From Halovenus sp. (GTDB lineage: Archaea; Halobacteriota; Halobacteria; Halobacteriales; Haloarculaceae): a stretch of 18,148 nt of DNA. The position numbers were made by a program, and so were the translations under genes. Within the stretch, counting starts at the first letter, position 1. Each line of letters begins with the position of its first letter. The notes beneath the pieces were generated by a model that was not told the DNA's origin, did no database searches, and was given only the letters and a program-made list of their open reading frames with translations. The stretch is from the NCBI GenBank assembly GCA_003551265.1, contig PUMG01000006.1:1-18148 (forward strand), written 5' to 3'. Positions 727-10,623 of this stretch are shown piece by piece.

Positions 727-2283
727 ATGCGAATAACGTCGTTTCACCTCGGCTTGCTCGGGTTGCTCGCGGTTCCCGGCTGGCTGTTCGAGTCACTCGC
801 GTTCATGCAGGTGTTCGGGCTGTTCTTCCTGTTCTTTCTCTGGCCGCTCGTCGCCCCGCTGTTCACCTGGGCGTTCGAGAGAGATGACAAGCCGCCGGAG
901 CCGATAGACTGGATTCACATGGGCGACTGGAGACTGTGGGTGAAAGCCTACGTCATGATCCCGCTGACGTTTCTCAATCCAGTGATCCTCACACAGGATG
1001 CGCTTCAAATGCTTGGGATGATTCCGGCGTACGTGCGCCACCGTGGTTCATTCCCGGCACCCGAAAGCTACGACCAGCGTGTCTCCTACCGGCTTCCGTT
1101 CGAGGGGACGTGGACAGTGGTCAACGGCGGCCACGAACGGACGGACTCACACTCGTGGTTTCCGGTGACTCAGCGCTACGCCTACGACTTCGTCATCACT
1201 GACGAGGACGGCCGGTCACGTCCGGAAGGAACGAGCGCAGTCGTCGAGAACTACTACTGCTACGACGAACCAGTCCTCGCACCAGCGGACGGAGTCGTTG
1301 TCGAGGCGTGGGATAGCGCAGCCGAGTCCAGACGTGCGGACGGTCTCTCTCATGTGGCAAAGCGAGACATCCGTGGCGGGTTCATCGTCATCCGGCACGC
1401 TCCCGGGGAGTTCTCCACTCTCGTTCACCTCGTGCCCGGAAGTCTGGCTGTCGAGGCTGGTGAGTACGTCGAGCACGGCCAGCAGGTCGGCCGGTGTGGC
1501 CACTCCGGCAACTCCAGCGAACCACACCTCCACTTTCAGGTGCAAGACCACCCACGGTTCGAACTGGCCGCCGGCCTTCCTGTTCGCTTCGACGACCTCG
1601 TCGTGGACTCACCGCTAGAGCGTGAGTATGACGAAGAGTGTGCGTCGACCGACGCCACGTCGGAGTCATCAACGAACGACTGTTCGGAGCGTTCATCCAA
1701 CCACAAACCGGACCTCTCACCCCTCGCGAAGGGGAAGAACGGCCACGGAGAGTTTCACTCCCGGACGTTCATTCGGCGCGGCCAGCGTGTGAAACACGCC
1801 GGTACAGAGACGAACGAAGCATCCGGAACGAACGAACCACCCGAGACAGGTCAGCCGAAGAAGTCGTCGACGGCTCTCTCGCCCGCACTCTCGCTGGGCC
1901 AGCGGTTCGCCTTCGGTCTCTGCGTCGCAGGCGTCGTTGCGTTCTTCGTCGGCATCGTCGCGTCCTGGGAGGTGATTGCTGCCCTCCTGGGTAGCAGCGT
2001 TGTTGCAGCAACAGCATTTCACTACTGGGTCAGGTTCCGACGAGAGGGGTACACGACGCGGGCAGGGTGGGCCGGGAGTGTGGTCGGTGTCAGTCTGGTT
2101 GCGGTCAGTGTCGCGCTCGCTGGCACGCTCGAATTCGGAGTCGGTGTCCAGTCACTGGGTGGGCTCTCGTTTATGTGTGGATTAGTGCTGTTCGTCGCCC
2201 TCGGCGAGTACGACCGCCTCCGATTGCGAACGTTGCTCGAAGCAAGCGAGGATGTCAATTCTCGACGAGTTCGACACCGGTGA
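727..2283 (+). CDS. Membrane-anchored M23-family (LytM/peptidase M23-like) metallopeptidase
   Basis: Predicted zinc endopeptidase domain of the M23 type between membrane segments (518 aa from the chosen start). Three hydrophobic stretches occur in the first 100 residues. The catalytic-like domain spans about 115-300: H142 and D154 in HSWFPVTQRYAYDF, then APADGVVVEAWD, GRCGHSGNS, and H267-L-H269 in EPHLHFQ, which matches the M23 HxH ligand motif. A Ser/Thr/Glu-rich linker of about 90 residues follows, and then about three or four C-terminal transmembrane segments. M23 enzymes classically cut peptidoglycan, which haloarchaea lack, so the substrate is unknown and could be a protein. The start at 727 was chosen from the TATA-like site and because hydrophobic sequence begins there; ATGs at 628 and 655 are possible. 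The 3' end overlaps the convergent kinase gene by 29 nt. Confidence 0.8.
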   Translation: MRITSFHLGLLGLLAVPGWLFESLAFMQVFGLFFLFFLWPLVAPLFTWAFERDDKPPEPIDWIHMGDWRLWVKAYVMIPLTFLNPVILTQDALQMLGMIPAYVRHRGSFPAPESYDQRVSYRLPFEGTWTVVNGGHERTDSHSWFPVTQRYAYDFVITDEDGRSRPEGTSAVVENYYCYDEPVLAPADGVVVEAWDSAAESRRADGLSHVAKRDIRGGFIVIRHAPGEFSTLVHLVPGSLAVEAGEYVEHGQQVGRCGHSGNSSEPHLHFQVQDHPRFELAAGLPVRFDDLVVDSPLEREYDEECASTDATSESSTNDCSERSSNHKPDLSPLAKGKNGHGEFHSRTFIRRGQRVKHAGTETNEASGTNEPPETGQPKKSSTALSPALSLGQRFAFGLCVAGVVAFFVGIVASWEVIAALLGSSVVAATAFHYWVRFRREGYTTRAGWAGSVVGVSLVAVSVALAGTLEFGVGVQSLGGLSFMCGLVLFVALGEYDRLRLRTLLEASEDVNSRRVRHR

Positions 2284-3691
2284 TTTCGAAGCGTGCGCCA
2301 CTCGCGTCACCCTCGACAAGGTCAACCTCCCAGTCGTGTGCACTGGCAACCTGTTTGACAATACTCAGTCCGAATCCAGTCCCGTCTTCCACAGACGAGT
2401 AGCCGCCTTCGAACACTCGCTCTCGGTCTTCTTCCGGGATGCCGGGACCGTCGTCGGTGACGTAGAACCCCTGTTCGTCCTGAAGCTCTCCTACTGTGAC
2501 GGTCACGTCAGTTCCGGCGTGTTCGACGGCGTTTCGGAACAGGTTCTCTACGAGCTGTCTGAGACGGCTGGGGTCCGCCTGAATCGTCAGTCCAGTCTCG
2601 ACGACTAGCGACGCCTCCGCTGTCTCGACGTTCCTCCAGCACTCTCCGATGAGTGTAGCGAGGTCGACCGGTTCGGTCTTCTGTACCTGTTTGCCCGCCC
2701 TGGCGAGGTCGAGCAACTCGTCGATGAGTTCGCTCATGCGCTCGTGAGCCTGCGCAACGGTGTCGAGATGCTCGCTGGTGCACTCCTCTCGGGCGAGTTC
2801 GACGTGACCCGCTGCGACGTTGAGCGGGTTCTGAAGGTCGTGGGAGGCGACGCTGACGAACTGGTCGAGCTGTTCGTTCTGGCGTTTTATCTCCTGTTCG
2901 CGCTCTTTGCGCTCGGTGATGTCCCGGATGTTCACCATCACGCCGTTGATGAGCGGGTCGTCGAGAAAGCTGCTCCCCCTGACTTCGAGCCAGCGAACCG
3001 ACCCGTCTTTGGCTATCGACTGGTACTCGACGGTCACCTCTTCGTCGGGATTCTCGACAGTTCTGAGAAAGCTGTTTACAGCGTCCTCGTGGTAGTCTGG
3101 GTGGATGTACTGGAAGGAGTTGGCTCCCACGACTTCCTCGGGTGTGTACCCCATGACACGCTCGATAGCGGGGGAGACGTAGCTGACTTGTCCATGACTG
3201 TCGACTATCAGAACGTAATCGGAGGAGTGTTCGAGGATGCGACTGTACCACTCTGAGCGTCGTTCGACCTCCCGTTCGGCCCGATACTGAGAGACCGCAT
3301 TCTGAATCCGATTCGCCAGCACTGTGTACTGGTCGGGGTTCGCCTCTTTCTGGATGTAGTCGGTGACGCCACGCGAGATGGCCTCGCTTGCTATTTCCTC
3401 ACTCCCTTTTCCGGTAAAAAGGATGAATGGTACCTCCGGTGAGACCTCTCGGACGGCGTCGAGAAAAGACAGCCCATCCATCCCCGGCATATCGTAATCG
3501 CTTACAATACAGTCGATGTTCTCTGTTTCGACCCTGTCGAGCGCACGCTGTGTGTCGTTCTCAGTGACGATATCGAACGCCTCCGACTCGCGCTCCAGAA
3601 ACGAATTAGTAAGTTCTGTGATACTGGGGTCGTCATCGAGATGGAGGATATGTATGGTGTCAGAAGACGAGCCAGTATCGGGTAGTACCAT
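2255..3691 (-). CDS. Response-regulator receiver / PAS / histidine kinase, cytosolic
   Basis: Single-protein signal transducer of 478 aa. Residues about 12-130 are a CheY-like receiver: acidic pocket D19-D21, phosphoacceptor D65 in SDYDMPGMDG, a conserved T in FILFTGKG, and K115 in YIQKE. Residues about 145-262 are a PAS domain ending in VNIRDITERK. Residues about 270-478 are a HisKA-HATPase module with H284 in SVASHDLQNP, N-box N387 in LFRNAVEHA, G1 DDGPGI (413-418) and G2 GTGFGLSI (437-444). No transmembrane segment is visible, so it probably senses intracellular cues or receives phosphate from another kinase. The start at 3691 (MVLPDTG) is 13 codons inside the longest reading frame and lies about 26 nt downstream of a strong TATA element. 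No cognate output regulator is adjacent. Confidence 0.9.
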   Translation of the reverse strand: MVLPDTGSSSDTIHILHLDDDPSITELTNSFLERESEAFDIVTENDTQRALDRVETENIDCIVSDYDMPGMDGLSFLDAVREVSPEVPFILFTGKGSEEIASEAISRGVTDYIQKEANPDQYTVLANRIQNAVSQYRAEREVERRSEWYSRILEHSSDYVLIVDSHGQVSYVSPAIERVMGYTPEEVVGANSFQYIHPDYHEDAVNSFLRTVENPDEEVTVEYQSIAKDGSVRWLEVRGSSFLDDPLINGVMVNIRDITERKEREQEIKRQNEQLDQFVSVASHDLQNPLNVAAGHVELAREECTSEHLDTVAQAHERMSELIDELLDLARAGKQVQKTEPVDLATLIGECWRNVETAEASLVVETGLTIQADPSRLRQLVENLFRNAVEHAGTDVTVTVGELQDEQGFYVTDDGPGIPEEDRERVFEGGYSSVEDGTGFGLSIVKQVASAHDWEVDLVEGDASGARFEITGVELVEN

Positions 3692-3712
3692 GTTTCTAAC
3701 CTGAACGAGAGC

Positions 3713-3722
3713 AATTATAAAT
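3713..3722 (-). promoter_or_regulatory. TATA box for the receiver-PAS-histidine kinase gene
   Basis: On the minus strand this reads ATTTATAATT, centred about 26 nt before the ATG at 3691. The strong AT-richness and exact spacing fit a leaderless archaeal transcript and decide the start codon. Confidence 0.65.
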
Positions 3723-3821
3723 ATTGGCAATCAGCCGAAGTCGACCGATAGCACTTTGTCTGGGAACACACTATCTCTGCGGTGTGTACAGCGACAGACC
3801 ACCGCGCTGTGACGAGGGCCA

Positions 3822-5192
3822 ATGACGCTCGACGCCGTCAAGCCGTACGACGACAGTCTCGTTTCGACAGTCGGAAGTCACGCGGTCGTCGTGGGTGCAG
3901 GAATGGCTGGACTGCTGACGGCACGGGTTCTCGCTGATGCGTTCGAGGCTGTGACACTAATCGAGCGTGACCCACTTTCACCAGAGCACGCAGTGCGTGA
4001 CGGTGTGCCACAGGGTCGTCACGCTCACGGGATGCTGGAGGCCGGGCGAGCCACCCTGGAGAGTCTCTTTCCAGGATACACACGAGCAGTCCGTGACGCC
4101 GGGGGCGTGATGGTCGACATGGCGACCGAATTCGACTACTACTACCGGGGTGAGAGTCTCGCTGATGGCTCCGATGAGCTCCCGACGCTCTGTGCGAGTC
4201 GCCCGCTTTTCGAGCAGATTGTTCGTCAGCGTGTTCTCTGTCTCGATGAGGTGAGTGTCCGCTCCGGATGTACGTTCACCGAGTATCTCATCGACGACGA
4301 CCGGACGACAGTTCGCGGTATCCGTCTCTCCGGTGAGGACGGCGACAGGGAAGAACTCACGGCGGACCTCGTCGTCGATGCGACGGGACGAGCATCCCGA
4401 ACACCCCGATGGCTCGAGCGTCAGGGATACCGTCCGCCCGAAGTTGAAGAGGTCACAATCGACCTCGCCTACAGCACTGTTCTCGTGGAGCGGTCACCTG
4501 AGCACTGCCGTGCCTGTCTCGTTGGTCCATCTCCGGAGTGTCCCCGTGGTGGTGCCTCGCTCCCTGCGGAGAACGACCAGCAGATACTGACGCTGTTCGG
4601 CATGAACGGCGACCACCCACCCACGACGTACCAGGAGTTTCTGGAGTTCGCTCGGTCGCTCCCTGCTCCCGAGTTCGAAGCGTTGCTCACAGAGAACGAA
4701 CTGGTTTCCGAGGAGATCCACCACTATCCCTTCCCGTCTAACCTGTGGCGTCACTACGAGCGACTCGACAGGTTTCCGGACGGACTACTCGTCACCGGAG
4801 ATGCGATTGCGAGTTTCAACCCCATCTACGGACAGGGTATGTCCGTCGCAGCGCTCGGTGCACTTCATCTCCACCACGCGCTTGCTGCCGGCACCCGAGA
4901 GAACCTCGCACCACGGTTTTTCCACCGGAGTGCGAACACTGTGAGTGACATCTGGCGTATGACCGTCAGTGCTGACTTCGAGTTCCCCCGAACTGAAGGA
5001 GAGAAACCCCGTGGCACCGATCTGGTCAACTGGTATCTCGACCGTCTCATGCACACTGCCTACACCGACGGGACCGTCGCCGATGTCTTCGCCCGCGTCC
5101 ACAGACTGGAGCAGTCACCGACAGCCCTCTTGCGCCCTTCGATTCTCTCCAGGGCACTCCTCCCACACGCGGTGTCTGAACGGCTCACTTGA
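3822..5192 (+). CDS. FAD-dependent oxidoreductase/monooxygenase-like protein
   Basis: Predicted flavoprotein of 456 aa with the p-hydroxybenzoate-hydroxylase/geranylgeranyl-reductase type fold. The N-terminal dinucleotide-binding motif is GAGMAG (25-30) with an acidic residue at E48 ending the second strand (LIERD). DATGR at 186-190 and the second FAD motif GDAIASFNPIYGQGM (326-340) are both clear. Such enzymes hydroxylate, epoxidise, halogenate or reduce hydrophobic substrates; the sequence does not reveal which. A GAGG sits 4 nt before the ATG. The gene converges on the terpene-synthase-like gene and their stop codons overlap over 8 nt, so it may act on an isoprenoid made by that neighbour. 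That link is inferred from synteny alone. Squalene epoxidase-like or halogenase-like activity are alternatives. Confidence 0.8.
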   Translation: MTLDAVKPYDDSLVSTVGSHAVVVGAGMAGLLTARVLADAFEAVTLIERDPLSPEHAVRDGVPQGRHAHGMLEAGRATLESLFPGYTRAVRDAGGVMVDMATEFDYYYRGESLADGSDELPTLCASRPLFEQIVRQRVLCLDEVSVRSGCTFTEYLIDDDRTTVRGIRLSGEDGDREELTADLVVDATGRASRTPRWLERQGYRPPEVEEVTIDLAYSTVLVERSPEHCRACLVGPSPECPRGGASLPAENDQQILTLFGMNGDHPPTTYQEFLEFARSLPAPEFEALLTENELVSEEIHHYPFPSNLWRHYERLDRFPDGLLVTGDAIASFNPIYGQGMSVAALGALHLHHALAAGTRENLAPRFFHRSANTVSDIWRMTVSADFEFPRTEGEKPRGTDLVNWYLDRLMHTAYTDGTVADVFARVHRLEQSPTALLRPSILSRALLPHAVSERLT

Positions 5193-6276
5193 GTCCGGTC
5201 GAAGCGAGGTGATACCGCAACACGTTCTCCATCCCTTCGATGAACGGTTCGAGGTCGACCGTCGACAGCTTGCGGTTGTACCACTGCAACTGGTGATAGT
5301 GCTGTTGCCAGCGCGCACGCAACGTCTGCTCGACACCCTGGTCTTTAATTCGCTCGACCAGTTCGTCTACCACTTCCTTCCCACCTTCACGCAACTGGTC
5401 GAGTTCTGCCCCGGTGATGACTCCGTTTTCGAGCGCATAGACGACCGGGCCGGAGCTATAGTCACCCTCGCGAAGCTCCCGTTCCCACGTACTCACCCAG
5501 TTGCCGATTCGAGCCATGAGCTGTGCCGTCCAGATTGCCTCGCGGAGCGTCGACAGGTCGTCACGGACCGCCAGAGGCGAGTGCATGAGGTCGATGTCTG
5601 CGTACGCGAACATCACCATGTTGTGTGATTCATACCGCAGCAGATCGGTCATCGTCACGAGGTCTGGGTGTTGAATCGCGAGCGCGCTGTACTCGATTGC
5701 GTTTATCGCCTGCTTGACGTCGAACCGAAGCAGGTCCGCGTACACCTCGTAATTCGGCGCACGCTGGAGACGGTCCACGAGAGTGTCCCACACCTGCTGT
5801 GCCACCTCGACGTACTCGGTGTCGACATCGTCTCTAGTGGTGTCCGGCGTCTGGTGTGCCGAGGGAATCTTCGCCAGTTCGACGAACGTCGCGTGGTCCT
5901 GGCGCTTTTCGAGCAGGTCGTCCAGCATCGTGATGAACAAAATAGTGATCGTCTTGTCGACTGGGACGGCATCGGTGAACTCCCGTTCGACACACGGGAG
6001 CGTGTTCTGTGGGGCGAGGCGATGAACCCACTGCCACATGAACACCGGCCGTGCGTCTTGCAGTTCGTGATACTCCTCCAGCAGTCGCTCGATGTCTGCT
6101 GGAAGGGGGTGTTCCTGAATCTCGGCTACAAACGCATCGACTGCTGACTGGTCGAGTCGGGAGGACCCGCCATTCGACAGCTCCGCGGTGAGCAGATTCG
6201 TGATGGTGCCGTCTAGCGACAGCTGCAGGTCGACCAACTGCTCGACGAGCAACGGTTGGTCGGACTCACGTTCCAT
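5185..6276 (-). CDS. Class I terpene-synthase-like protein
   Basis: A 363-aa, mostly helical protein with the hallmark motifs of class I terpene cyclases. These are DDxxE (D119, D120, E123 in MLDDLLEKRQD), a candidate pyrophosphate-sensor Arg R214 (LLRYESHN), an NSE-type motif N259/T263/E267 in NWVSTWERE followed by LREGD, and a C-terminal RY at 354-355. The DDxxE-to-NSE spacing is 140 residues, sensor-to-NSE 45 and NSE-to-RY 95. From memory, bacterial cyclases have about 140, 46 and 85-90. These residues would bind Mg2+ and the diphosphate of a prenyl substrate. Two differences from the textbook NSE are a Trp in place of the second residue and Thr in place of Ser. No second, class II DxDD motif is evident. 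The start at 6276 lies 28 nt from a TATA element; the reading frame continues 12 codons further upstream. The actual substrate and product are unknown. Confidence 0.65.
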   Translation of the reverse strand: MERESDQPLLVEQLVDLQLSLDGTITNLLTAELSNGGSSRLDQSAVDAFVAEIQEHPLPADIERLLEEYHELQDARPVFMWQWVHRLAPQNTLPCVEREFTDAVPVDKTITILFITMLDDLLEKRQDHATFVELAKIPSAHQTPDTTRDDVDTEYVEVAQQVWDTLVDRLQRAPNYEVYADLLRFDVKQAINAIEYSALAIQHPDLVTMTDLLRYESHNMVMFAYADIDLMHSPLAVRDDLSTLREAIWTAQLMARIGNWVSTWERELREGDYSSGPVVYALENGVITGAELDQLREGGKEVVDELVERIKDQGVEQTLRARWQQHYHQLQWYNRKLSTVDLEPFIEGMENVLRYHLASTGLK

Positions 6277-6308: not shown

Positions 6309-6403
6309 GCATGTGTGACGGTCACCCGAGCGTGGTTTCCTCCCCGACGGACTCCGTTGATCAAATTACGCCCGAGTGGATTGCTCACACCTCTCTCTTG
6401 CCG

Positions 6404-6414
6404 GTTTCTTTTTG
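6404..6414 (+). promoter_or_regulatory. T-rich TATA-like element for the Bax1-like gene
   Basis: A T-rich run (GTTTCTTTTTG) is centred about 30 nt before the GTG at 6439. It is the only AT-rich island at the expected distance and supports GTG 6439 as a leaderless start. The match to the archaeal TATA consensus is weak. Confidence 0.35.
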
Positions 6415-6438
6415 CCGAGCGAGCGCGCAGTCTCTGCT

Positions 6439-7968
6439 GTGCTCACGAAAGACCTCCTGCGAGTCTCCCGCCGTGGTGGGGGGTATCGACCCCAGTTCGT
6501 CGATGCGAGTCAGAAAACCCTCGCCGCGCGCGTCATCGGCTGTTATCAGGGTCACGTCGGTGAGCGCCGGGAGACGCTCAGGGATGCCCTGACGGCTATC
6601 GAGCGCGAGAGCGACGACTTCAAACTCGTCCGTGGGTTCGCCAAACTGATAGAGCGGGATGCAACCTGGGAGACCCGCTCGGAACTCGACCCGGAACGGA
6701 CCCGAAAAGCGGTGTTCGCTGCCAGTGAGACGGTCGGCGTCGTGACGACAGACGACCGAAACGAGGCGCTCAAAGCCGCCGCACACAGCCTCGGTTCCGA
6801 ACCCGAGGTGGTCGAACAGTCGCTGTACGCCGACCTCGACTCCCGCGAGATACTCGTCGACGTGAATCCGCGCTGGTCTCCCACGGAACTCCTCGCCCAG
6901 TACAACCTCTCGCTCGCTCAGACAGCGCTGTTCGATGCGACCGAGGTTCGCATCCGTTCGAACGACCCGAAAGTGGTCATCTCGTCGCTCAAACGCCTCC
7001 GACTGCTCTATGAGGTTCGACTCCTCCCGCCCCAGGAGCGTCGCACTATCGCCGAAGCCGACCGTGAAATCGTCGTCACCGGACCGGACGACCTCTTTCG
7101 GAACACCCGCCGGTACGGAACCCGATTTGCTCGCCTGCTCAGAACCGTTGCCAGCACCGCACAGTGGCGACTCGAAGCTACTATTGACGACCGTGGTACC
7201 GAGCGAGAACTCACGCTCACCCACGACGACGTCTCCGTTCCGGGTGTCGACCCGGTCGCAGAAGTGTCCTACGACAGCGGTGTCGAGGCGGAGTTCGCCC
7301 GCCGTTTCGAGGCGCTAGGTCTCGACTGGACACTCGTTCGCGAACCGGACGCTATCCCGGCGGGCGAACACGTCGTCATCCCTGATTTCGCCTTCGACTA
7401 CGACTTCAGCGACTTCCGCGTGTACTTCGAGATTATGGGCTTCTGGACGCCGGAGTACGTCGAGAAGAAACTCACGAGACTCGATGCCGTCGACGACGTC
7501 GAGATGCTGGTCGCTGTCGACGAGAGCCTCGGTGTCGGCGAGGAGATCGAAGCCCGCGACCACCGTGCAATCCCGTACTCGGGAAGCGTCCGCCTCAGAG
7601 ACATCCGCAACGCACTCCGTCGATACGAAACAGACCTCCAGGCGGACGCTGCCGAAACACTTCCCGACGAACTCTTTCCCGACGCAAACGTAACCACTCT
7701 CGAAATCATCGCGGCTGAGTACGGCGTCAGCACTGATACCCTCGAAGGTATATCTTTTCCTGCCCACGAGAGAATCGGTGGCTCGCTGGTTCGTCCGGCC
7801 GTCCTCGAACGCCTCGCCGACGACCTCTCGGTCGGGATGGGACTCGACGAGGTTGAGTCAGTACTCGGAGAGCACGGGATAGAAGAGACGAGTGCCGTTC
7901 TCGGTGAACTCGGCTACCGAATCGAGTGGGAGGGACTCGCTGGAGGCACGCTGAGAGAATCAAAGTGA
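6439..7968 (+). CDS. Bax1-like nuclease (DUF790 family), partner of archaeal XPB helicase
   Basis: About 509 aa. Start residues LTKDLLRVSRRGGGYRPQFV are the typical opening of archaeal DUF790/Bax1 proteins, which form a helicase-nuclease complex with XPB in nucleotide excision repair or related repair. The central part holds a PD-(D/E)xK-like nuclease core: P315-D316 in VIPDFAFDYDF, then E331 in YFEIMGFW and Lys residues 343-344. The start was taken as GTG 6439 because the 21 codons upstream of it to an ATG at 6376 do not look like family sequence and a T-rich promoter element lies at the right distance. In many archaea the XPB gene is adjacent. Here the upstream neighbour is the divergent terpene-synthase-like gene and the downstream one converges, so no XPB is next to it. 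Confidence 0.85.
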   Translation: MLTKDLLRVSRRGGGYRPQFVDASQKTLAARVIGCYQGHVGERRETLRDALTAIERESDDFKLVRGFAKLIERDATWETRSELDPERTRKAVFAASETVGVVTTDDRNEALKAAAHSLGSEPEVVEQSLYADLDSREILVDVNPRWSPTELLAQYNLSLAQTALFDATEVRIRSNDPKVVISSLKRLRLLYEVRLLPPQERRTIAEADREIVVTGPDDLFRNTRRYGTRFARLLRTVASTAQWRLEATIDDRGTERELTLTHDDVSVPGVDPVAEVSYDSGVEAEFARRFEALGLDWTLVREPDAIPAGEHVVIPDFAFDYDFSDFRVYFEIMGFWTPEYVEKKLTRLDAVDDVEMLVAVDESLGVGEEIEARDHRAIPYSGSVRLRDIRNALRRYETDLQADAAETLPDELFPDANVTTLEIIAAEYGVSTDTLEGISFPAHERIGGSLVRPAVLERLADDLSVGMGLDEVESVLGEHGIEETSAVLGELGYRIEWEGLAGGTLRESK

Positions 7969-8118: not shown

Positions 8119-9156
8119 CTACCGTTCCAGTTCCCCGGCGAGTTCCTGCAGGCGTTCGATTCGGTCTGCGGTCGGCGGGTGTGAGCCGGGGAACAGCTCC
8201 TGGCTCAGAATCGAATCGTCGTCGTCTTCGTCGTTGAACATCGGGAGGTTGAGAGACGCGATGTACAGCGCCTCTGCACCGCCGTCGAGGTCCCGGAGGT
8301 CGCGGTCTGGGAGCGACTCCATCCGCCGGTCAATCCGGTCGAGTGCGGAGGCGAGCGCCAGCGGTTTTCCTGTGACGGCGGCCGAACCGCGGTCAGCCGA
8401 GTACTCGCGGTACTGGGAGATGAGCCGAAAGAGCGCAAAGCTCGCAATCCAGAAGATGGCCGACACCGTGATGGTGACAGCGGCGGTCACCACGAAGAGA
8501 ACGATGATGACTGCGAGGGCTCTCCCGCTGTCCCGGCCGCCACCCGTGTGCATATACGAGAGCCCCTTGAGGAAGGTGGTGAGCACCTGGTAGGTGACGG
8601 AGGCGACGACGAACGTGAACGTCGGCAGGAGGTACGCTATCGACATTACGGTCGCGTCACGGTTGCGGATGTGTGCGAGTTCGTGGGCCAACACGGCGTC
8701 GAGTTCGTCGTCGTCGAGCGTCTCCCGCAGACCGGTGGTGACGGCGACCGTCGCATCCTCACGCGAGCGTCCCGTTGCGAACGCGTTCGGAGCGTCAGAG
8801 CGAATGAGCGCAACGTCGGGAGCAGGCATCTCGGCGACCGCGGCAAGTCGCTCGACTCGGCCGTACAACTCCGGGGCCTCCTCGCGGCCGACGACTCGTG
8901 CATCCGTCTCGGCGAGGGCCATGTCTCCACCTTTGTAGTACGCGAGCGCCAGACCAGCGACCGTCAGAGCGGCAATAATAACCGGGCTGAACGAGACGGT
9001 CCCGAACTCCCCTTCGGTCAGTGACTCGGCGAGCGGGAAAATGAGGTGATTGAACGCCGCCGCCATCGTGAATGTGAAGGCCATCGGCAACAGCGCGAGC
9101 AAGATGAGCGTGACCACCATCCGAACCTGCAGACTACGGTCTGGTTCCCACGCCAT
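8119..9156 (-). CDS. HtpX-like M48-family membrane zinc metalloprotease
   Basis: A 345-aa integral membrane protease. It has two N-terminal transmembrane segments (about 12-35 and 55-73) and an HExxH zinc site at H158-E159-LA-H162 (AHELAHIRNRD). Two further transmembrane segments (about 172-198 and 213-245) follow, then the third ligand E251 in REYSADR. This layout matches HtpX/Ste24-type proteases, which degrade misfolded membrane proteins. The C-terminus has the typical SHPPTADRIERLQ block and ends in a TAG stop. The start at 9156 (MAWEPDRS) was chosen because the 40 upstream in-frame codons are not protease-like. The gene lies 46 nt downstream of the DUF7122-like gene on the same strand, so co-transcription is possible. 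Confidence 0.85.
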   Translation of the reverse strand: MAWEPDRSLQVRMVVTLILLALLPMAFTFTMAAAFNHLIFPLAESLTEGEFGTVSFSPVIIAALTVAGLALAYYKGGDMALAETDARVVGREEAPELYGRVERLAAVAEMPAPDVALIRSDAPNAFATGRSREDATVAVTTGLRETLDDDELDAVLAHELAHIRNRDATVMSIAYLLPTFTFVVASVTYQVLTTFLKGLSYMHTGGGRDSGRALAVIIVLFVVTAAVTITVSAIFWIASFALFRLISQYREYSADRGSAAVTGKPLALASALDRIDRRMESLPDRDLRDLDGGAEALYIASLNLPMFNDEDDDDSILSQELFPGSHPPTADRIERLQELAGELER

Positions 9157-9202
9157 GACCGTGTGTTCGTCCCGATGGATACTTGAACAGAACGGAACTG
9201 TA

Positions 9203-9718
9203 TTACTCCCGGAGGTCGCGCTGGCGACCTTTCGGCACCATCGAGCGCAGTTCGCCGTGGACGTACAGCCCAACACCGAGTGGCTCCTGCTCGCCAGCCA
9301 GTTCGTGTGTCACGACGAGATACCCCCAGTCGCCGTCCCAGTCGAGTTCCTGGTCCTCGCCGGTGAAAAACCGACGTGCCTCGGTCTCTGTGAGTTCGAT
9401 ACAGTTCTTGCGTGCGTACGTGCCAAAGCGCTGGACAGCCGAGAGCGTCGGCTTCCAGTGTTCCTGACGGGTCCGCAAGAATGTGATTCCCAGACCCTCG
9501 ACGTCGACCGGGGAGTCGAGGTCGCCGTGAAACGCCCACACTTTCCCCGCGCCTCGTTCCCAGAAGCTGTAGGCTTCGAACACCTCGGGGTCGACACCGA
9601 AGCGCTCGTCCCACCACCTGAGCACCTCACGTCTCGTTGCTCGACCCTCGACGCACCGGTCGTCTGCCGTCGCTGGAAGCCTGTCGAAACGCGTCCCGAC
9701 GTTCGTCGTGTCGTTCAT
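9203..9718 (-). CDS. DUF7122-like (PUA-type) protein linked to the RNA methyltransferase
   Basis: A 171-aa protein with the conserved-looking block WWDERFGVDPEVFEAYSFWERGAG and the C-terminal block GVGLYVHGELRSMVPKGRQRDLRE. From memory, this is the small protein that accompanies NSUN-type methyltransferases in haloarchaea; a similar RNA-binding module is fused to the C-terminus of such enzymes in other lineages. Its ATG overlaps the NSUN stop (ATGA) and has a near-perfect Shine-Dalgarno 7 nt upstream, so the two are translated together and probably act as a complex on RNA. An RNA-binding role is inferred. The reading frame extends 36 codons further upstream inside the NSUN gene, but those residues are out-of-frame shadow. 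Confidence 0.75.
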   Translation of the reverse strand: MNDTTNVGTRFDRLPATADDRCVEGRATRREVLRWWDERFGVDPEVFEAYSFWERGAGKVWAFHGDLDSPVDVEGLGITFLRTRQEHWKPTLSAVQRFGTYARKNCIELTETEARRFFTGEDQELDWDGDWGYLVVTHELAGEQEPLGVGLYVHGELRSMVPKGRQRDLRE

Positions 9719-10623
9719 CCGCCGGTCACCTCCAGCTTTGCACAGAAGAACCCGCCCGTGTCGTTGTGGTGTGGGTAGATGCGTTTTGCCCGACGCATCG
9801 AGTCGTCGAAACGCTCTTCCTCCCACTCAGTCACTCCCGAGGTACATTCGAGTGGACAGTCGAACTCGACGAGTCGGCACGGCGACGATTCGAGGGCATG
9901 CTGAAGCACTGCTTCGTTCTCCTCGGGCGCGAACGTACACGTCGAGTAGACCACCGTCCCACCCTCGCGGGTCACCTCGATTGCCCGTCCAAGGATGCCT
10001 TTCTGCACACCCGAAATGCCCTGGACGTGGTCGAGCGTCCAGTTGTCGAGCGCGTCGGGGTTCTTCCGGACGGTCCCCTCACACGAACAGGGGACGTCGA
10101 CCAGCACCCGGTCGTAGGGGTCTCCGAACGGTTTCAGTGAGTGGTGTCTGGCGTCTTCGACGGTCACGGCGAGGTTCGTCACGCCGAGGCGTTCGGCGTT
10201 CGACCGCAGTGCCGAGAGCCGTCCGAGGTTGTTGTCCGTCGCCACCACCAGCCCCGAGTCGTCCATCAGCGCCGCCAGCTGAGATGTCTTGCTTCCGGGT
10301 GCGGCACAGGCGTCCCAGACACGCTCACCTGACTGTGGGTCGAGCACCACCGCCGGGAGTGCTGACACCTCCTCCTGGCCGTGAAGCCAGCCGTGGACGT
10401 ACGGCCAGTTCGTTCCCGGCTGGTCGTCGGGGAGGCGAAACACACCGGGATGCCAGTCGACAGCCTCAACCGCCATATCCGCCGTTTCCATCGCGCGTCG
10501 AGCGCGTTCGACCGTCGTCTTGATGGTGTTCACCCGGACCGCCGATGGGAGCGGCCGCTCACAGGCCGCTCGAAACGCCTCGAAATCGTCGATGAGCGGT
10601 TCGTAGCGCTCCAGTACGTTCAT
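9715..10623 (-). CDS. NSUN/RsmB-family RNA m5C methyltransferase
   Basis: A 302-aa SAM-dependent RNA cytosine-C5 methyltransferase of the NOL1/NOP2/Sun family. Motif I (SAM binding) is DACAAPGSKTSQ at 104-115. Motif IV is DVPCSCEGT with C179, and motif VI is YSTCTF with C229. The two-cysteine pair is the family's catalytic signature, with C229 as likely nucleophile and C179 assisting release. The protein ends soon after a family-typical terminal block (HHNDTGGFFCAKLE) with no PUA domain; that role is probably taken by the overlapping downstream gene. tRNA or rRNA could be the substrate. The gene is divergent from the M20 peptidase across 100 nt. Confidence 0.9.
   Translation of the reverse strand: MNVLERYEPLIDDFEAFRAACERPLPSAVRVNTIKTTVERARRAMETADMAVEAVDWHPGVFRLPDDQPGTNWPYVHGWLHGQEEVSALPAVVLDPQSGERVWDACAAPGSKTSQLAALMDDSGLVVATDNNLGRLSALRSNAERLGVTNLAVTVEDARHHSLKPFGDPYDRVLVDVPCSCEGTVRKNPDALDNWTLDHVQGISGVQKGILGRAIEVTREGGTVVYSTCTFAPEENEAVLQHALESSPCRLVEFDCPLECTSGVTEWEEERFDDSMRRAKRIYPHHNDTGGFFCAKLEVTGG
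9726..9733 (-). promoter_or_regulatory. Strong Shine-Dalgarno for the DUF7122-like gene
   Basis: GGAGGTGA on the minus strand lies 7 nt before the ATG at 9718, inside the end of the NSUN gene. It is fully complementary to the archaeal 16S 3' end (TCACCTCC), showing internal re-initiation within an operon, and it decides the start. Confidence 0.8.

Follow-up and report, generated by a model that had tools for sequence, protein, structure and literature searches.

The terpene synthase-like locus

The window (the whole stretch of DNA analysed here, 18,148 nucleotides of contig PUMG01000006.1, assembly GCA_003551265.1, from Halovenus sp.) contains a gene predicted to encode a class I terpene synthase; to our knowledge, cyclised terpenes have rarely been reported in archaea. 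The coding frame is read from 6276 on the minus strand, frame 1 of the plus strand showing internal stops between 5185 and 6276, and its guanine plus cytosine content (59.2%) differs little from the mean of the window (61.5%). An earlier inspection of the letters (the original prediction) had assigned to the product the complete motif set of class I terpene cyclases. All the residues concerned (DDLLE at 119-123, R214, N259/T263/E267, REGD at 269-272 and RY at 354-355) were found where they had been placed on the 363 amino acid (aa) minus-strand translation, and the spacings of 140, 45 and 95 were reproduced. The features of the locus are collected in Table 1.

Table 1. Features of the window around the terpene synthase-like gene, with positions in the window
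Feature	Position	Strand	Remarks
Class I terpene synthase-like gene	5185..6276	minus	363 aa; an upstream ATG at 6312 gives an alternative of 375 aa
DDLLE, residues 119-123, aspartate-rich metal motif	5908..5922	minus	C-terminal end of predicted helix 103-123
NWVSTWERE, residues 259-267, NSE triad N259/T263/E267	5476..5502	minus	Predicted helix 235-269
R256, 3 residues ahead of N259, proposed diphosphate-binding Arg	5509..5511	minus	Invariant; putative role
R214, pyrophosphate sensor of the original prediction	5635..5637	minus	Unconserved (Arg in 34/82 rows)
FAD-dependent mono-oxygenase, polyene-epoxidase-like	3822..5192	plus	PF01494, 4.5e-11; 3' end overlaps the synthase gene by 8 bp, convergent
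Receiver-PAS-HisKA-HATPase hybrid histidine kinase	2255..3730	minus	Start at 3730 or 3691; divergent from the FAD gene

Class assignment and predicted fold

The original prediction was checked by a profile search against PF19086 (Terpene_syn_C_2). A single match, spanning residues 112-286, included both metal motifs, with borderline scores around the curated cut-off of 23.7 bits: 22.4 bits for the 363 aa and 375 aa forms (E 1.1e-4 for the former) and 25.1 bits in a six-frame genome search. Conservation was analyzed on 30 aligned sequences, namely the window protein and the 29 best other genome matches (38-63% identity to it), selected independently of the motifs. PF19086 was matched at E <= 0.01 by 22 of the 30 (best 8.7e-7). 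The alternative of a trans-isoprenyl diphosphate synthase (PF00348) was rejected, since none of the 30 members matched any Pfam family other than PF19086 at this threshold, and DDLLE is the sole DDxxD/E in the window protein, with no second DDxxD.

By structure prediction and structure-similarity searches, the predicted model of the window protein has the alpha-helical class I terpenoid fold; a different fold, named beforehand as refuting the assignment, did not appear. Bacterial class I synthases, such as Sat1646 (7e4n; titled pimarane-type diterpene synthase in 7e4o), T-muurolol synthase (9hqm) and hydropyrene synthase (8b4m), are like the window protein in predicted alpha fold, DDxxD/E and NSE, although identity is 10-17% among the Foldseek and VIA rows listed. 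They differ from the window family, which has an unconserved sensor Arg and RY, a signalling context and a RIGNWxxTWxRE signature. Plant isoprene, 5-epi-aristolochene and bornyl diphosphate synthases are far longer (about 490-780 aa) and 9-13% identical.

Conservation of active-site residues

Residues D119, D120, E123, N219, R256, N259, T263, R266, E267, E270 and D272 are invariant in the 30 sequences. A larger alignment contains 104 rows, corresponding to 96 distinct sequences, as re-fetched copies of the same loci are included here and in the neighbour-profile counts below; DDxxD/E is intact in 101 of its rows and NSE in all 104.

The two arginines proposed outside these motifs behave differently. 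R214, claimed as pyrophosphate sensor, is present in the window protein at the spacing of 45, but is Arg in only 34/82 rows, and R354 of the claimed C-terminal RY, also present, is Arg in only 11/82. In the Patescibacteria-type set (16 rows, including re-fetched copies), Arg was found in a single row at each position (L135 for R214, L105 for R354). Both roles were set aside, as both residues vary freely among relatives. The counts are unaffected by L094, a wrong open reading frame (ORF; end branch 10) included in the 82-row alignment and 81-row tree and removed from the 80-row tree, and by the fragment L072_18200, included in the 82-row alignment and removed from both trees.

R256 is Arg in 30/30 and 104/104 rows. 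A profile alignment places an Arg of Sat1646 at the same site, three residues before the NSE Asn; in bornyl diphosphate synthase, an Arg at such a position binds pyrophosphate. Because of its invariance, of the Arg shared with Sat1646 and of this parallel, R256 may be read as a diphosphate ligand. Overall, the class I terpene synthase assignment is well supported by predicted fold, borderline Pfam membership and invariant metal motifs; "complete motif set" was too strong a wording, because the sensor Arg and RY assignments are not borne out by conservation.

Distribution and phylogeny of the family

When 391 genomes belonging to the class of the window (Halobacteria, by relatives) were searched at the protein level, 119 of them, in 39/86 genera, gave matches. 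Contigs were also scanned, one genome per species, with the pattern IGNW[VLI][ST]TW; because of this pattern residues 257-264 are conserved by construction in the resulting set, a bias from which the 30-sequence set is free. At least 79 named loci were collected, mostly from haloarchaea; the others come from a Methanohalobium bin, a Thermoplasmata bin, an Anaerolineae bin, and Patescibacteria and unclassified bins. Loci L111-L125 and L139-L143 were picked, non-randomly, by frame length, kinship or interest.

In an 81-row tree, obtained by a quick method with Shimodaira-Hasegawa-like approximate likelihood ratio (SH-aLRT) support and no bootstrap, and in which several bacterial rows are long-branched, 64 haloarchaeal rows group together (support 98), as do 11 Patescibacteria-type rows (99). 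The nearest neighbours of the window protein are SHRA6 and a bin of Haloarculaceae (95), followed by Halobellus (100). In the phylum of L107, 5 of 379 genomes matched at 1e-8, and three of these (G417, G419, G484) had themselves supplied sequences to the query alignment; the family is therefore rare in that phylum.

Another haloarchaeon of the same family as the window, G183 (L121, 5653-11355), contains two canonical terpene synthases of 478 and 463 aa. These score 169.5 and 164.1 bits against PF19086, compared with the borderline scores of the window family, and the one scanned has an SRPBCC-like N-terminus. Each has beside it a 312 aa protein, interpreted as a polyprenyl synthase from the one that was scanned (PF00348); the two pairs are divergent.

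Signalling genes near haloarchaeal members

Immediate neighbours of haloarchaeal copies were scanned against Pfam (124 of 127). The families found included PAS (29), BAT and HTH_10 (20), HalOD1 (18) and HATPase_c (8). None of these was among the 25 families listed, with counts from 5 to 2, out of 229 found in 124 control genes of the same loci (from a sample of 145 taken out of 832), so that signalling families of one or two members might still be present among the 229. By local profiles, built from few fetched proteins, a signalling gene (histidine kinase, PAS, receiver, BAT or HalOD1) is next door to 48/83 haloarchaeal copies, 30/61 under 80% identity and 18/44 under 65%, the identity-filtered sets dropping re-fetched copies. 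The last value is to be compared with 13/287 for background next genes from the same loci (binomial probability 2e-13, if independent). On the 80-row tree, a signalling domain is adjacent or fused in 52 rows, with at least 11 changes between having and not having it; the link is therefore recurrent, yet often absent. It is clear above background but not universal.

In SHRA6 (L003/L032) and in a Halodesulfurarchaeum bin (L055) a receiver is fused to the synthase. Both full fused receivers carry LLDR and KP, which we take to be the phospho-acceptor and lysine motifs. A third candidate, L073, starts at a contig end with an apparent receiver tail. Further fusions suggested by long open frames were discarded: among 14 loci (L111-L125 without L121, all holding a family gene), gene calls keep the long form only in L122, from the same genome as L032/L003. 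The Pfam scan found no receiver domain in the window synthase itself.

Some neighbours are of other kinds. A metallo-beta-lactamase-fold hydrolase, not a regulator, is divergent from the synthase in the Natrinema loci L060, L068 and L092 and in L112, L114, L116 and L117 (by Pfam in L060, by local profile in the others); it is conceivable that it acts on the product as a lactonase. A FIST sensory-domain protein (8724-9980) overlaps the synthase by 4 base pairs (bp) in L078, a deep-branching archaeal bin. Two further neighbours, a T2SSE-type ATPase encoded by a large gene next to a Halobellus copy and a 566 aa methylmalonyl-CoA mutase in L043, showed no clear link (one scanned in each case).

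Patescibacteria-type loci

A histidine kinase is adjacent in 12/12 loci (11 clade members and L134), in 10 of them next door by profile. The kinase of L098 is split into pieces, beginning 2 bp downstream of the synthase; that of L101 is cut by the contig end and retains HisKA_7TM and part of HisKA. Ten kinases were scanned against Pfam, leaving out L097, L098 and L110, and HisKA_7TM was found in 8: L095, L100, L101, L102, L105 (below the curated cut-off), L108, L109 and the upstream kinase of L134. It was not found by Pfam in the L107 kinase nor in the nearer L134 kinase.

In 9/12 loci a polyprenyl synthase is found no more than four genes away. In L109 and L134 an isopentenyl diphosphate isomerase (IDI), over the curated cut-off, is located between prenyl synthase and terpene synthase, and in L134 the terpene synthase shares one strand with two kinases, prenyl diphosphate synthase and IDI, in the order kinase, prenyl diphosphate synthase, IDI, synthase, kinase. 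G442, a genome of the same phylum sample, has its synthase flanked by kinases, and the same 20 kb contain 3-hydroxy-3-methylglutaryl-CoA (HMG-CoA) reductase, isopentenyl phosphate kinase and diphosphomevalonate decarboxylase. Given these isoprenoid-pathway neighbours, an isoprenoid substrate is the natural reading for the whole family. Nine Patescibacteria-type genomes were searched, with IspH matches in four (one a fragment) and HMG-CoA reductase in one.

The "Lysobacteraceae" locus L098 is probably mis-binned, because it shares two downstream gene clusters (read as mraZ and rsmH) with Patescibacteria L100, L107 and L110. An S-adenosylmethionine-dependent methyltransferase, matching generic families only, directly precedes the synthase in L097 (4393-5232) and L098 (195-1028). 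A role in C-methylation of a prenyl diphosphate is conceivable, but both stay below every curated cut-off in the 25 families listed for each.

Neighbours of the window gene and similar gene sets

The nearest solved relatives of the flavin adenine dinucleotide (FAD)-dependent enzyme that adjoins the synthase are MonCI (5e-48) and Lsd18/LasC (2.2e-45). Both act on polyether polyketides, whereas the window gene adjoins a terpene synthase. FAD-gene relatives lie near family members in L032, L049 and L123, and the receiver-PAS-HisKA-HATPase architecture recurs in L115, L122 and L123 (in L033 by local profiles only). SHRA6 (L032, L122 and L003 being the same genome) combines a receiver-HalX-synthase fusion, FAD enzyme and receiver-PAS-type kinase with a gene resembling epoxide hydrolases (6e-60 to its best solved relative); G086 (L123) has FAD enzyme, kinase and synthase together; in G030 (L115) the synthase is accompanied by a receiver-PAS kinase and a cytochrome P450 (P450). 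In Natrinema ejinorense (L049), two FAD relatives, a SnoaL-like gene and P450- and hydrolase-profile genes surround the synthase, with no signalling gene within three genes of it. Three polyprenyl synthase matches in the window genome are a possible substrate supply. On the other side of the synthase, window positions 6376-7968, divergent from it, match a DUF790/Bax1-type nuclease below the NCBIfam cut-offs, apparently unrelated.

Discussion

We favour, with a probability of roughly 65%, an active class I terpene synthase whose product is probably epoxidised and whose pathway is wired to phosphorelay signalling. Mg2+ would be bound by D119/D120/E123 and N259/T263/E267, and R256, with other invariant basic residues, would help to ionise a prenyl diphosphate, possibly farnesyl or geranylgeranyl diphosphate, giving a terpene hydrocarbon or alcohol. 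In the window genome, the neighbouring MonCI/Lsd18-like flavin enzyme would then probably epoxidise the product. The phosphorelay connection would be provided here by the receiver-PAS histidine kinase two genes off, and in relatives by receiver fusion, by Bat/HalOD1-type regulators next to the synthase or by operons that include histidine kinases; we prefer control of the synthase by the kinase over sensing of its product.

Several observations weigh against this interpretation. The bacterial-type sensor Arg is unconserved across the family. No solved relative of the synthase was found by phmmer against PDB, a profile gave a weak match to Sat1646 7e4n (E 0.024), and the profile of the bacterial set was unconvincing (top hit perosamine synthetase, E 1); a search of NCBIfam gave no match for the synthase. 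FAD partners are uncommon (6 genes among 105 loci, with one genome counted twice), the window kinase is next but one to the synthase, hence non-adjacent, and the fusion lineages are two, one resting on a single genome (identical in L003, L032 and L122). Finally, no signalling gene occurs within three genes of the synthase in 23/44 non-redundant haloarchaeal loci, and ND replaces DD at 119-120 in three haloarchaeal rows (L099 and L104, from the same genome, and L118).

The loci free of signalling genes, together with P450, FAD and hydrolase neighbours resembling a plain biosynthetic cluster, would suit an ordinary synthase of specialised metabolism, near which signalling genes are incidental in regulator-rich genomes. 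This is somewhat unlikely, given the excess of signalling genes over the background rate, the existence of receiver fusions and the constant kinase of the Patescibacteria-type loci. Slightly less probable is a non-cyclising enzyme of class I fold, such as a synthase of isoprene or of a linear prenyl alcohol, or a prenyl transferase: the prenyl-chain synthases of these loci point to longer substrates, product class being unpredictable from the present data. Receiver fusions and regulator neighbours, as well as the three ND rows, could also be explained by a catalytically dead terpene-synthase fold, acting as a lipid- or prenyl-diphosphate-binding regulator, which the nearly general conservation of DDxxD/E and NSE makes very unlikely.

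The terpenoid might itself be a signal ligand, synthase and adjacent sensor kinase forming an autoinducer-like send-and-receive pair. The grouping of synthase, kinase, mostly with HisKA_7TM, and prenyl diphosphate synthase in Patescibacteria-type loci, complete on one strand in L134, is in line with this idea; receiver fusions favour control of the enzyme over sensing of the product, and the sensor parts of the kinases vary by lineage (7TM, GAF, PAS), so that we consider it improbable. Even more speculative is a terpenoid communication common to haloarchaea and ultra-small Patescibacteria, in which a compact operon would make the terpene from isopentenyl and dimethylallyl diphosphate, the adjacent membrane histidine kinase would read it and, in some archaea, the synthase would be the output of a phosphorylated receiver.

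Neither an archaeal class I synthase nor a receiver-terpene synthase fusion was reported among the titles and open-licence PMC literature covered, with subscription papers and preprints outside this scope, and an earlier description of the archaeal family or of the fusions may exist. The main text of a survey of archaeal response regulators (PMC5847659) contains "terpen" 0 times; the response regulators with enzymatic outputs that the survey describes have the receiver-enzyme fusion in common with the synthase relatives of SHRA6 and L055. Section 15 of PMC8600319 gives two "terpene" clusters per Halomicroarcula genome, enzymes unspecified, and cites one earlier report.

The original prediction was partly supported, chiefly on enzyme class, and overlooked the more unusual part, i.e. 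the context of kinase, epoxidase-like enzyme, receiver fusions and Patescibacteria-type operons. The class I clade, present in 119/391 sampled genomes, often stands by two-component or Bat/HalOD1 genes and sometimes by an epoxidase-like enzyme, and the existence and role of an archaeal terpene become testable in, for instance, Haloarcula japonica, H. vallismortis, Haloferax marinum and Natrinema ejinorense. In the small genomes of the Patescibacteria type, the occurrence of the synthase alongside prenyl-diphosphate genes points to a dedicated metabolite in cells that produce few. A receiver-terpene synthase fusion would place terpene synthesis under direct phosphorelay control, and the relatives found beside, or fused to, signalling proteins hint at an unstudied signal-linked chemistry.
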